NCBI GenBank assembly: GCA_002105175.1
Contig: MCGE01000016.1
Coordinates: forward strand, 751,501-815,500
Direction of reading: 5' to 3'
From: Absidia repens
Taxonomy: Eukaryota > Mucoromycota > Mucoromycetes > Mucorales > Cunninghamellaceae
Length of the DNA: 64,000 bases
Each line of letters opens with the position of its first letter. Within the stretch, counting starts at the first letter, position 1. The translations under genes were made by a program, and so were the position numbers. The notes below the pieces were generated by a model. The model made no database searches, was not told the DNA's origin, and saw nothing but the letters and a program-made list of their open reading frames with translations. Below are positions 4,810 through 64,000 of the stretch, one piece after another.

Positions 4810-5525
4810 AACTTCCGCCCACATGCTATTTTATTTATCTCCAGATTTCTTTTTTTTATTGTTTTCCCTCTTTCTTTCTTCTTTCCTTCACCATTTAACT
4901 TCTATGATGTTATGGTGATCTTAGGTTAATGTCAGGACTAGTTTAGAAGGGGGTTCAGCTCATGGATTACAACATGCATGGGGAAACCCTTTCATTTTGG
5001 ATTCAGGATTTAGAACGGTTGGCTTTTTGAAGCATTCATTAGCTTAGTTCACCGTTAGTTTACCCATAGTTTGTATCTACATCAGAATAAAATACGACTC
5101 TTTTTACTGGCTTCAATGAAAAATATGTTCCATTATTCTCTCTCTCATGTCTTGTGCAATAAATTCCTTTTTGTCATCGCCCGTTTAGATTAGTGCTGCC
5201 CGTGGTTGTCTTTCAACAACTATTCTTCCAGGATATCTCATGCCTTGTACAGTATGTTAGTTCCCATTTTCCAATTGTCCCTCCAGATTAGTGTTACCCA
5301 TTTAATCTCTCTCATGCATTCTCCAATAAATCACTTCCCATGCCCCCGCCTTTAATTCTAGTATCTTCCACTATGCTTTAATAAAATATGCTTTTTTATG
5401 AACTATCCTATAACACCTTGAATGATGAACAATGTCACTATTGTAGCTGTTTTAAATGTGTCCCACCAAACACTCACTTTTTAGCTCACCCACTATGACG
5501 ATTTTTCTTCTCTAAAGACCTAAGG
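4810..5525 (+). repeat. Interspersed repeat family, copy 1
   Basis: Member of a family found seven times in this window. The 5' end is a decayed form of the shared start (CCGCCCACATG then TATTTATTT). A T/C-rich stretch follows, then the conserved core: CACCATTTAACTTCTATG, GACTAGTTTAGAAGG, TTCAGCTCATGGATTACAA, CATGCATGGGGAAACCC and TTTCATTTTGGAT. Downstream comes ATTAGCTTAGTT, then GTATCTACATCAGAATAAA, then a 3' half made of loosely repeated blocks containing CTCATG and TTTAGATTAGTG. No open frame runs through it. The 3' end is set by comparison with the copies near 27.4 and 52.4 kb and is approximate. Confidence 0.75.
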
Positions 5526-5765
5526 ACTTATAAACGATCATTATGACATACATATCTCTATATCATCGTCGCACACGTATTCCCAAACCAGTATCATCCC
5601 ATTATATACCCATTCCTGACTGCATCATCACCACCATCACCCCCAAACAATCATGAGACAAAAACAAATGATAGGTCAAGATAATATTCTTTATTTCATC
5701 CAACGCAAAAACGAAGAGCAATAATAATAAAATAATATAAAAAGAGCCACACCGGGGCGATACGC

Positions 5766-6337
5766 TTATTTAAGCTATAAAAAGAAAAGTAAAGGTGAAT
5801 GAGTATCCGGAACGCAACAAACGCATCATGAACTTACCTTCTTCTTGGGACGGAGTTGGTTGGTACGGCCGCAAGAACGCTTACGACAGTTGACGGCACG
5901 AGGGGGTAAACGAGCGTAACACTTACGACAGATCATCTTGTCGCAGTTGTACTTGGAAGCCAAGGCCTTCAAGGAAGGTTCGATGATACCACCACGGAGA
6001 CGGAGGACCAAGTGAAGGGTGGATTCCTTTTGGATGTTGTAGTCAGAGAGAGTACGGCCATCTTCCAATTGCTTACCAGCGAAAATCAAACGTTGCTGGT
6101 CAGGAGGAATACCTTCCTTATCTTGGATTTTTTGCTTGACGTTGTCGATAGAGTCAGAGCTAAAAAAAAAAATTACAATAAAAAGGGGTCGGTCAGTATA
6201 TATGGCTGCAACTTTCATTCATACTTGGTGGTGGGTATCGTTATCGTTCCTATCCTTTCTATCTTTTTTTTCTTCTATTACCTCTCGACTTCGAGCGTAA
6301 TGGTCTTGCCGGTAAGGGTCTTGACGAAAATTTGCAT
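5766..6337 (-). CDS. UBI1: Ubiquitin-ribosomal protein eL40 fusion
   Basis: Precursor cleaved after the double glycine to give ubiquitin and the 60S protein eL40. Exons on the minus strand are 6337-6282, 6159-5838 and 5774-5766, giving 128 residues. Exon 1 starts [11 protein letters not shown]; exon 2 carries the rest of ubiquitin through LVLRLRGG and then the eL40 part starting IIEPSLK, with the four-cysteine zinc site ([20 protein letters not shown]) and [10 protein letters not shown]. The last exon is only 9 bp (Leu, Lys, stop) and is needed to finish the conserved PKKKLK terminus; reading through the donor GTAAGT would instead add a false VSS. The introns are 122 and 63 bp. It sits divergent to the ERF4-like gene. 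The family is certain; the symbol follows the yeast name for the eL40 fusion. Confidence 0.96.
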
Positions 6338-61451: not shown

Positions 61452-63119
61452 ATGATGCTTTCAGCAAATCGCTACCATGGCATGAAAAGCATGCTTCGAC
61501 ACTCTGTATGGGCACGATCTTTTCCTTATGCTAGGACAGTCACGACTTCTTCCACCAGTGCTGCATCGCCTTTACCGAAACGCTTGATTCCAAAACTCAA
61601 TCAATCGGTCACTCGTTTAGGGTTTGGAGGCTATCGAGCGACTGATCCTGCCACCCATGGGGCTGCTTTACAATACGCTTTGAAAAATGGGATTGATCTT
61701 ATTGATACTGGGGCCAACTTTGAAAATGGACGCTCAGAGCAGCTGATTGGTGATACCTTGTCCTCTTCGGACGTCGATCGCAAGGTAAACAACATTAAAC
61801 ACAAGATGAAAATCACAAGAACACATTGACTAAACGGAGCGTTCTCTCTTTGTTTTGTTTTTTTATCATTATTTATTATTGAATAGGACATTACCTTGGT
61901 GACAAAGGCGGGTTATCTTACCAACAAAGATATTGAACGACTGGATCGATCTGGCAGTAGCAGTGGTGATGACTATATTCACATTCAAGGCAACAGTTAC
62001 CATGGGATCTCACCGCGGATTTTGGAGGATCAACTAGCGCAATCACTGGACCGCCTTCAAACCAACTACATCGATATCTTTATGATCAACGCTCCCGAAC
62101 GCATGCTTCTTTCCTCCACCTCACGTAGTGGCGACGTCTACAAGCAATTGGGTGACAGTTTCCGGTTTTTGGACACCATGGTACAACAAGGCACGATCAA
62201 GGGATATGGGGTGTGTTCCAACACCATGGCATCCAAGGAAGCCGTCGACCACATCTCGCTGCCCTCTGTGCTGGCGGCCTGTGACAAGCTGGACACCAAC
62301 TTTTGTGCGGTGGAAGCGCCCTTCAACTTGTACGAACAGCAGCTGGTGCAAGACGCCGCGTGGATGGATGCGGTGGAAACAAACAATCTCTTTTGGATGG
62401 CCAACCGACCACTGAATGCGATCACCCCGCAAGGCTCGATTCGTGGACTGTACAACCATATGATGGCGCAACCTAAGGACATGGATGATTTACGACAGGC
62501 GTTTGAAATGGTGGCTGAACTGGAAGTGGACATGATGTCGGAATTACCAGAAGAAGAACAAGAAGATGACGGCGGACTTGGGTCTCGGTTTGTGTGGGGC
62601 CAAATCTTGTCGGAAAACTTGCAACGGTTGGGCCAGCATCATTTTGCCACGCAACATTACCTACGCTCGCAGGTGCAACCAAAACTTGACAAGGACTTGA
62701 ACGACTTTCGACTGGCGTACGGCGATGTGCCGGCCTACATGGAATGGTCCGAGGTGTACCGTACGTCCATGCTTCATTTGATGGAATGTTTGGTCAACTA
62801 TTCTTATATGGATACCTTGAAAAAGAACAATGATTTGGATCGGATCTTATCGGCCCTGGTATCGTGGCCCAACCAGCATGTGCAATATACCGACGATGAC
62901 GTGCAGCTGCATGGCGCTGAAGAGGGTGTCCAGCCCTGCCACTCCCCTTTGACGGTCAAGGCGCTTCAAATTTATTTGGCTCAACAAGACATTGGTGCTG
63001 TCGTCACTGGCATGCGACAACCTCAGTATGTGGATGATGCGCTCGTGGCCATGAAGGAACATCAATCGTCCCCTTTGACTGAACAGCAATTGATGGACAT
63101 CAATCGTATTTTAGTTTAA
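61452..63119 (+). CDS. Aldo-keto-reductase-fold protein with altered catalytic residues, probably mitochondrial
   Basis: Two exons, 61452-61784 and 61887-63119, 521 residues, longer than a normal AKR (about 320). The N-terminal 35 residues are basic, hydroxylated and acid-free (MMLSANRYHGMKSMLRHSVW, ARSFPYARTVTTSS), a good mitochondrial presequence. The AKR part has VTRLGFGGYR, IDLIDTGANFENGRSEQLIG, VTKAGY, LEDQLAQSLDRLQTNYIDIFMINAPE, DTMVQQGTIKGYGVCSN, then CAVEAPFNLYEQQLV and FWMANRPLNA. The catalytic tetrad of active AKRs is Asp-Tyr-Lys-His; here Asp85 and Lys118 remain, but Tyr is Phe90 and His is Asn179. An insertion of about 150 residues (MSELPEEEQEDDGG and helices around YMEWSEVY) precedes the last fold elements, ending DIGAVVTGMRQPQYVDDALVAM. 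It may be a pseudoenzyme or use another reaction. Confidence 0.82.
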
Positions 63120-63704
63120 AATACCCATCCCTTTATAGTTATTTTGTATAGATGGTATTATTATTATTATTATCCCCTTCCCTTCATTAGCATATAGTTT
63201 GTTTTGTTTGTTTGTTTGTTTGTTTGATTTTTGGTTTTTTAATTAATAAACGAAATAGTTTGTATTTCTATTAAATTTCTTTTTTATCTTGTTCTTTGAA
63301 TCTGGTTGTATAAGAGGTACTGTTTATGATGGTAAAAGGACCTGTTTTTGTGGCAGAAAGTTGATAGCATGCGATTATGTAATATCATATGCAATGGGGC
63401 AGAAAGAAGATTTTGTATGTGTTTGTTACTGTTGTTACGAAAATGACAGCGTGGATGCAATGTTTCTTTCAAGCTGTGTTTATTGGACGTAGAAAAAAAA
63501 AAACAGGCATGCGCTTGTGTGAAAAAAAGTACAGAGTATTTAGTTTATTGGGACCTCTGCATATCATACCGAAGTGGGTTATATAGGGCCTCAGCTCATT
63601 TTCAGCGAAAATTTAATACTGTTCAATAAAAGACTTTTTTTTTTATTGGTCCCTTTTTTTTAAGCTTTCTCTTGTTACAAGGCGAAGAGCGGTTGATGGA
63701 GGGG
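63120..63704. other. Intergenic, no gene seen
   Basis: 3' flank of the AKR-like gene, with a TTTG tetranucleotide run near 63200-63225 and AATAAA near 63247. A Cys-rich frame at 63289-63492 is probably random. Repeat copy 7 follows. Confidence 0.4.
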
Positions 63705-64000
63705 GCGTGCCATGACGTGAATGAAATTGGATTGGCTGATTTTTCCATGGGGGCGGTGAAAATAACATTTCCTCTTTCTCTTTTTCTGTTCATTTTTTTT
63801 TTTTTTTCTACACCATTCAACTCCTTTAATGTTATGGTGATCTAGATTAGTGTCAGAACTAGTTTAGAAGGGGGATTCAGCTCAGGAATTACAAGATTCA
63901 TGGGGAACCCCTTTCATTTTGGAGCTAAGATTTAGAACCACCATTAGCTGGCTTCTGGGAGCCCGGATTAGCATAGTTTACTTTTAGGATGTCATAGTTT
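63705..64000 (+). repeat. Interspersed repeat family, copy 7 (cut by window end)
   Basis: Plus-strand copy running off the window. The 5' end is decayed (GCCATGACGTGAATGAAATT). The core is clear: CACCATTCAACTCCTTTAAT, TTAGTGTCAGAACTAGTTTA, TTCAGCTCAGGAATTACAAG, GGGGAACCCCTTTCATTTTG, GAGCTAAGATTTAGAACCAC, CATTAGCTGGCTTCTGGGAG. Confidence 0.8.

Follow-up and report, generated by a model that had tools for sequence, protein, structure and literature searches.

The window studied here is a 64,000-nucleotide stretch of the genome of the soil mould Absidia repens (contig C8, positions 751501-815500, of an assembly of 47,368,516 bases or 47.4 Mb in 79 contigs) and holds seven copies of a dispersed non-coding repeat with a conserved core. 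One ORF of the window has its best database match in Absidia repens BCR42DRAFT_418875, with 100% identity across 79% of the query. All seven had been proposed in an original prediction made from the letters of the window, and all are found near the places given for them (Table 1). A profile built from these copies recovers them at E-values of 6.5e-125 to 3.2e-215 (partly by construction, as copies and seeds are the same) and finds 16 further core-bearing copies in a 264-kb region that comprises the window and 200 kb of contiguous sequence of contig C8. Genes were called with a crude self-trained coding model that yields 116 gene pieces in the 264 kb, and at the resolution of this caller all 23 core-bearing copies of the region lie between genes, as had been predicted for those of the window. 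Profile hits cover 7.6% of the window, close to the previously given share of around 8 percent, and approximately 11% once hits to the upstream modules described below are added. Overall, we collected 66 profile hits, 56 with a recognizable core and 10 without; five matches lacking the core in the 264 kb lie directly behind core-bearing copies. Thirty loci come from outside the 264-kb region, 25 of them (L029-L053) from the list of exact core matches; L005 was left out. Alignments comprise 53 of the 56 core-bearing hits (score of at least 150), leaving out two copies of contig C8 (69 and 70) and L031 (90).

A complete element is approximately 1.1 kb long and non-coding. From 5' to 3', it is composed of one of two alternative modules (A or B, each around 230 to 250 nt), a promoter-like box (TTCAAATCCCGCCCACGTGA with a TATTTATTT stretch) that ends in CACGTG, a T/C tract, a part that resembles a transcript and has many TTAG/ATTAG words, the core (GGGATTACAAGATGCATGGGGAAACCCTTTCATTTTGG), an AATAAA, and loosely repeated 3' blocks with further AATAAA and CTCATG words, and homology fades around 0.85 kb past the box. 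The alignment agrees with the predicted order of box, T/C tract, core, AATAAA, and blocks with CTCATG and TTAGATTAG. By contrast, the shared end of the copies turned out to be internal rather than terminal, as homology continues upstream into module A or B, and in the copy at 63705 the box that should mark it is unrecognizable (70% off the majority). A sharp 5' end common to the copies is thus not borne out. Module A is present in 26 and module B in 10 of the 56 core-bearing hits, while 20 have neither or are not covered there; for the 23 copies of the 264-kb region, the numbers are 12, 4, and 7 with neither. The bodies differ slightly by module type (0.344 within and 0.374 between types; permutation p 0.017). 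The majority sequence of module B contains an inverted repeat (ACCCACAATAACGAT ... ATCGTTATTGTGGGT) that is seen at window 17675-18100 (-) and at eight further places in the fetched DNA and that type A does not have. Outside elements, an exact TTCAAATCCCGC occurs at two sites of the 264 kb (window 2007 and 59574, both on the minus strand), one of them followed by TTATAAAGG; both are upstream of called genes, which suggests that TTCAAATCCCGC may be a host-type promoter word. No open reading frame (ORF) is conserved over the core, as had been noted, and a search for a short peptide there on either strand found median ORF lengths of 11 to 38 residues and no conserved frame. Judged by the order of its signals, the arrangement resembles a small polymerase II transcription unit.

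Table 1. Element copies and upstream modules in the window (window coordinates).
Feature	Position	Strand	Core	AATAAA	Evidence and remarks
Copy 1 upstream module, type A	4431..4803	+			nhmmer, 79 bits; weak match
Copy 1, box to 3' half	4807..5599	+	4963-5003	~5086	nhmmer E 7.6e-204
Copy 2 upstream module, type A	15903..16344	+			nhmmer, 118 bits
Copy 2, without 3' half	16346..16772	+	16512-16552	~16642	nhmmer E 6.5e-125
Copy 3	16842..17671	-	17459-17499		nhmmer E 1.9e-197; convergent with copy 2
Copy 3 upstream module, type B	17675..18100	-			nhmmer, 244 bits
Copy 4	23516..24391	-	24191-24231		nhmmer E 3.2e-215, pair alignment; inner tract nearly common with copy 5
Copy 5 upstream module, type A	26263..26701	+			nhmmer, 167 bits
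Copy 5	26713..27502	+	26872-26912		nhmmer E 3.7e-201
Copy 6 upstream module, type A	51234..51662	+			nhmmer, 148 bits
Copy 6	51665..52521	+	51844-51884	~51977	nhmmer E 5e-193; box equals the majority exactly (difference 0.00)
Copy 7, box not recognizable	63705..64000	+	63885-63925		nhmmer E 2.9e-135; continues ~480 bases past the window

The repeat is abundant throughout the genome. With up to two mismatches, a 26-mer of the core is found at 3,351 places (1,663 and 1,688 by strand; reversed control 0 and 0), and 1,020 places match it exactly. At the same tolerance, a 26-mer ending at the AATAAA is found at 734 places and one from the 3' body at 65, and the reversed patterns have no match genome-wide in any of the 26-mer searches. 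As the core is within two mismatches in 20 of the 23 copies of the 264-kb region, the 3,351 matches lead to an estimate of around 3,850 copies, which at 1.1 kb per copy would amount to up to about 9% of the genome if all were complete. An apparent strand-skewed run of cores on contig C1 (plus strand only) was discarded, since the exact-core search shows both strands there.

The copies are old and form one family. The body tree of the 53 aligned copies is star-like, with 17.4 substitutions per site on terminal and 1.5 on internal branches, and any two copies differ by a mean of 0.093 in the core, compared to 0.26 and 0.285 in the parts flanking it and 0.44 in the 3' half; tree and distances are biased towards intact cores by the 25 loci picked from the exact-core list. 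Genome searches with four copies found relatives at 70% to 83% identity among the matches listed, and those of at least 500 bp reach at most 76% except for copy 4, found at 82% with its neighbor copy 5. Each of these searches scored the best 40 of 3,041 to 3,930 candidates ranked by shared words, and it is unlikely but possible that a near relative was overlooked. One recent pair is present on contig C8 (89% over 696 bp). We infer that this was a non-autonomous mobile element and that it expanded in a burst long ago.

Within these old copies, the core, the E-box, and the AATAAA are better kept than the remainder. Across 21 of the 23 copies of the 264-kb region, which underlie all conservation figures, copies deviate from the family majority by a median of 4.8% in the core, 7.5% in the box, and 15% to 18% in the remaining transcript-like part; the figures are higher for the 3' half (25%), the T/C tract (31%), and the region 5' of the box (46%). 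Insertions and deletions follow the same pattern, with 0.11 events per copy per 100 columns in the core (a single event in 21 copies), 0.57 just 5' of it, 1.6 to 1.9 after it, and 2.5 to 4.5 in the 3' half. The AATAAA is intact in 18 of 21 copies (other hexamers sampled nearby: 3 to 12 of 21) and CACGTG in 16 of 21, while TAG occurs 12 times compared to 5.6 in dinucleotide shuffles, and TAG columns outside the core are kept at 0.92 compared to 0.82 for the remainder. At an independent divergence of 25%, the chance of finding 20 of 23 cores with at most two mismatches is 2.9e-29, and at 15% it is 1.4e-10. Neutral decay of inserted copies should strike all parts alike, so that 5% difference in the core next to 25% in the 3' half, together with the star-like tree and the near absence of close relatives, argues for copies that have been constrained or homogenized. 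The conserved CACGTG, core, and AATAAA on such old copies lend partial support to the original prediction, namely that E-box and core may point to transcription or protein binding and not to passive debris.

An ordinary dead family of non-autonomous transposons could look similar if only its active sources needed the core while the inserted copies decayed neutrally, the spread among bodies then reflecting many diverging source lineages. The dispersed, non-coding, and gene-avoiding distribution would fit this explanation, as would the few recent pairs and the presence of autonomous elements in the genome (150 scored reverse transcriptase matches of 213 candidates and 19 matches to Helitron_like_N), none of which is linked to the repeat family. 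Constraint on source lineages is also one explanation for conserved domains in short interspersed nuclear elements (SINEs). Yet if neutral decay after insertion explained no more than the 5% of the core, thousands of separate source lineages would be needed to account for the 25% of the 3' half, while the 53 copies form a star tree and the four genome-wide searches are almost without near relatives among the matches listed. We regard a dead family as rather unlikely.

Uniform cores could also arise by concerted evolution, i.e., gene conversion or cDNA-mediated recombination that keeps the middle of the element alike without selection on any single copy. Segments are indeed replaced between elements, as is evident from two pairs with near-identical inner tracts inside older, more different elements, and this may help to keep the core uniform. 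In one pair (positions 210557 and 254900 of the 264 kb), the sequences become near-identical directly past the T/C tract and stay so into the 3' half, with larger differences in box and T/C parts, and in copies 4 and 5 the common tract starts at the box. The drop of conservation on both sides of the core would fit conversion as well. What tract-wise conversion alone would not produce is that AATAAA, CACGTG, and TAG stand out from their immediate neighbors, and strong cases number only two in 264 kb. Site-specific constraint is only modestly supported by a dispersion test. We hold conversion as the sole cause to be improbable.

The position of the elements relative to genes is far from even, as judged with the self-trained coding model on which all gap statistics rest. 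Fourteen of the 23 elements are in convergent gaps, eight in tandem gaps, and one in a divergent gap, compared to a convergent share of 23.5% expected by length (p 1.4e-4). Counted by gaps, convergent ones hold an element in 11 of 17 cases, tandem ones in 7 of 80, and divergent ones in 1 of 18 (Fisher test of convergent versus divergent, 2.7e-4), and two stricter score cut-offs give the same picture (10/16 convergent, 1/17 divergent, and 8/55 tandem; 8/12, 1/13, and 9/40). With the limits of a crude gene caller, elements are thus concentrated in convergent gaps and nearly avoid divergent ones.

Our preferred explanation, to which we assign a probability of roughly 40%, is that an ancient non-autonomous element left copies whose central module has since been kept by selection, acting through a local transcript or bound proteins and, in the simplest case, serving convergent genes as a boundary or terminator. 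The family would have spread in an old burst, after which the central module of most copies would have been maintained for a local action, exerted either by a non-coding transcript that is short and polyadenylated or by proteins on box and core. From the order of signals, such a transcript would start after the pyrimidine tract and end after the AATAAA. It is the position of the elements that suggests a role as boundary or terminator, which is the simplest function to propose and no more than a guess. A more far-reaching version, which we consider unlikely, would have nearly 4,000 individually selected non-coding transcription units across the genome, all derived from one ancient mobile element and present in around two thirds of convergent gaps, that insulate or terminate facing genes and, e.g., prevent overlapping antisense RNA. 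RNA interference is found in Mucorales.

Several observations weigh against selection on the copies. Column conservation is overdispersed throughout, exceeding binomial expectation 2.2- to 3.3-fold outside the core, also in the 3' half, and 1.67-fold inside the core, and A/T is better kept than G/C everywhere, which means that mutation accounts for part of the unevenness; the core has G/C-rich words that run counter to this bias. The segments copied between elements in two close pairs show that homogenization contributes. In tandem gaps, the orientation of elements is unbiased (5 facing and 3 following), and avoidance of promoters by any insertion would also explain the convergent bias without a function. 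Finally, the profile was seeded with core-bearing copies and may miss those without a core. Taken together, we rank selection on individual copies first, followed by constraint inherited from active ancestors, then by conversion, and lastly by a role purely at the DNA level.

This last explanation would make the element a replication origin, an insulator, or a chromosome-anchoring site whose box, T-rich tract, and core are protein-binding sites with no need for a transcript. It would fit the similar density of cores in the 264 kb (75.8 per Mb) and in the whole genome (70.7 per Mb), the fixed order of E-box, T-rich tract, and core, and the lack of a convincing RNA structure. The window has no Rfam match, and alignment folding of up to 53 copies found no favorable covariation and only a hairpin around the core, of -2.6 to -2.9 kcal/mol on either strand; this is below column-shuffled controls (around 0 to -0.6 kcal/mol), with an unfavorable covariation term (+0.22 and +0.35). 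Strand-specific AATAAA and TTAG words at constant places would not be expected of such a site, and we consider this role distinctly improbable. E-box, AT-rich tract, and core together are reminiscent of yeast point centromeres, and AAACCCT of the telo-boxes of plants.

As to the class of the founding element, nothing points to a SINE derived from tRNA, 5S, or 7SL RNA, as the window contains no tRNA and no Rfam match at gathering level. The sequence TTCAAATCC resembles a polymerase III B box; this interpretation was rejected because copies 4 and 5 have the altered word TTGAAATCC and box and core are separated by long T runs. The 25 longest pairs listed out of 1,576 include no inverted repeat that joins the two ends of a copy, as the terminal inverted repeats of a transposon or of a miniature inverted-repeat transposable element would; copy termini are not fixed, and old copies may have lost target-site duplications. 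Ends are likewise undefined with regard to Helitrons, and while the order from promoter to AATAAA recalls a long terminal repeat (LTR), the termini expected of a solo LTR are undefined as well. Viral, bacterial, or archaeal origin was dismissed, since no exact core is present in viral contigs or in bacterial and archaeal genome contigs, and so was origin from a plasmid or phage, among which copy 2 has no match. One trial frame has no homologue in the protein database. As predicted, the family matches no named element in the libraries searched, which did not include a transposon collection such as Repbase, and the portions of the literature that we surveyed do not describe it, which does not show that the family is unpublished.

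The genes next to the elements are partly recognizable. Six of nine scanned neighboring ORFs have a Pfam match at E 0.01 or better (one of them under its curated cut-off), all on the called strand and including GST, Kelch, response regulator, and aldo/keto reductase domains, and three have none. For one of the latter (window 52989-53444, minus strand), the model calls the plus strand, which leaves the type of gap around copy 6 uncertain. Facing copy 1 is a gene that, by eye, is presumably a ubiquitin fusion. Convergent copies 2 and 3 abut across a run of 29 A (window 16798-16826) between their 3' ends, which could be an old poly(A) tail or the result of slippage. Directly beyond the window, a 1.07-kb segmental duplication with 92% identity (C8:815685-816751 and 820766-821834) starts in the 3' half of copy 7 and extends into its flank, and the core of the second element is much decayed. 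The window further contains two direct repeats side by side (36367-36678 and 36691-36989; 85% identical over 312 bases) and a six-base microsatellite of CATACA units (33396-33540).

Among well-known repeats, mammalian MIRs are tRNA-derived SINEs with a link to the CORE-SINEs. Of what would mark an exapted ancient repeat of this kind, the age and uneven conservation of the Absidia copies are supported, with selection on individual copies not fully separated from conversion. As described in PMC4090950, MIRs are similarly a very old, dispersed, non-coding family with deep conservation that is discussed as recruited for host regulation. Unlike MIR, the Absidia element has no tRNA part and shows a polymerase II-like layout, AATAAA signals, and a bias for convergent gaps in a compact fungal genome. 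DINE-1/INE-1 elements and HINEs, which are non-autonomous Helentrons, are comparable as the most abundant non-coding repeats of their genomes with an autonomous partner that was long unclear (PMC4067079), and a Helitron-type family is also present in Absidia; unlike for these elements, Helitron-type termini could not be shown, and no link to Helitron genes was found. If the transcription reading is right, the units would also be similar to the type-I PIWI-interacting RNA (piRNA) genes of Caenorhabditis elegans, which PMC11262695 presents as thousands of independently transcribed small non-coding units with a common upstream motif. Those genes occupy two domains of one chromosome, while the Absidia units are dispersed and have their most conserved part in the presumed transcript.

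The recruitment of repeats is usually argued copy by copy, and here thousands of old copies are available in parallel within one compact genome. A core that was kept next to a remainder that drifted could allow a direct distinction between selection, gene conversion, and constraint on source lineages. Should the copies indeed act between convergent genes, they would be an example of how colliding transcription is dealt with in a small genome by means of a recruited repeat.

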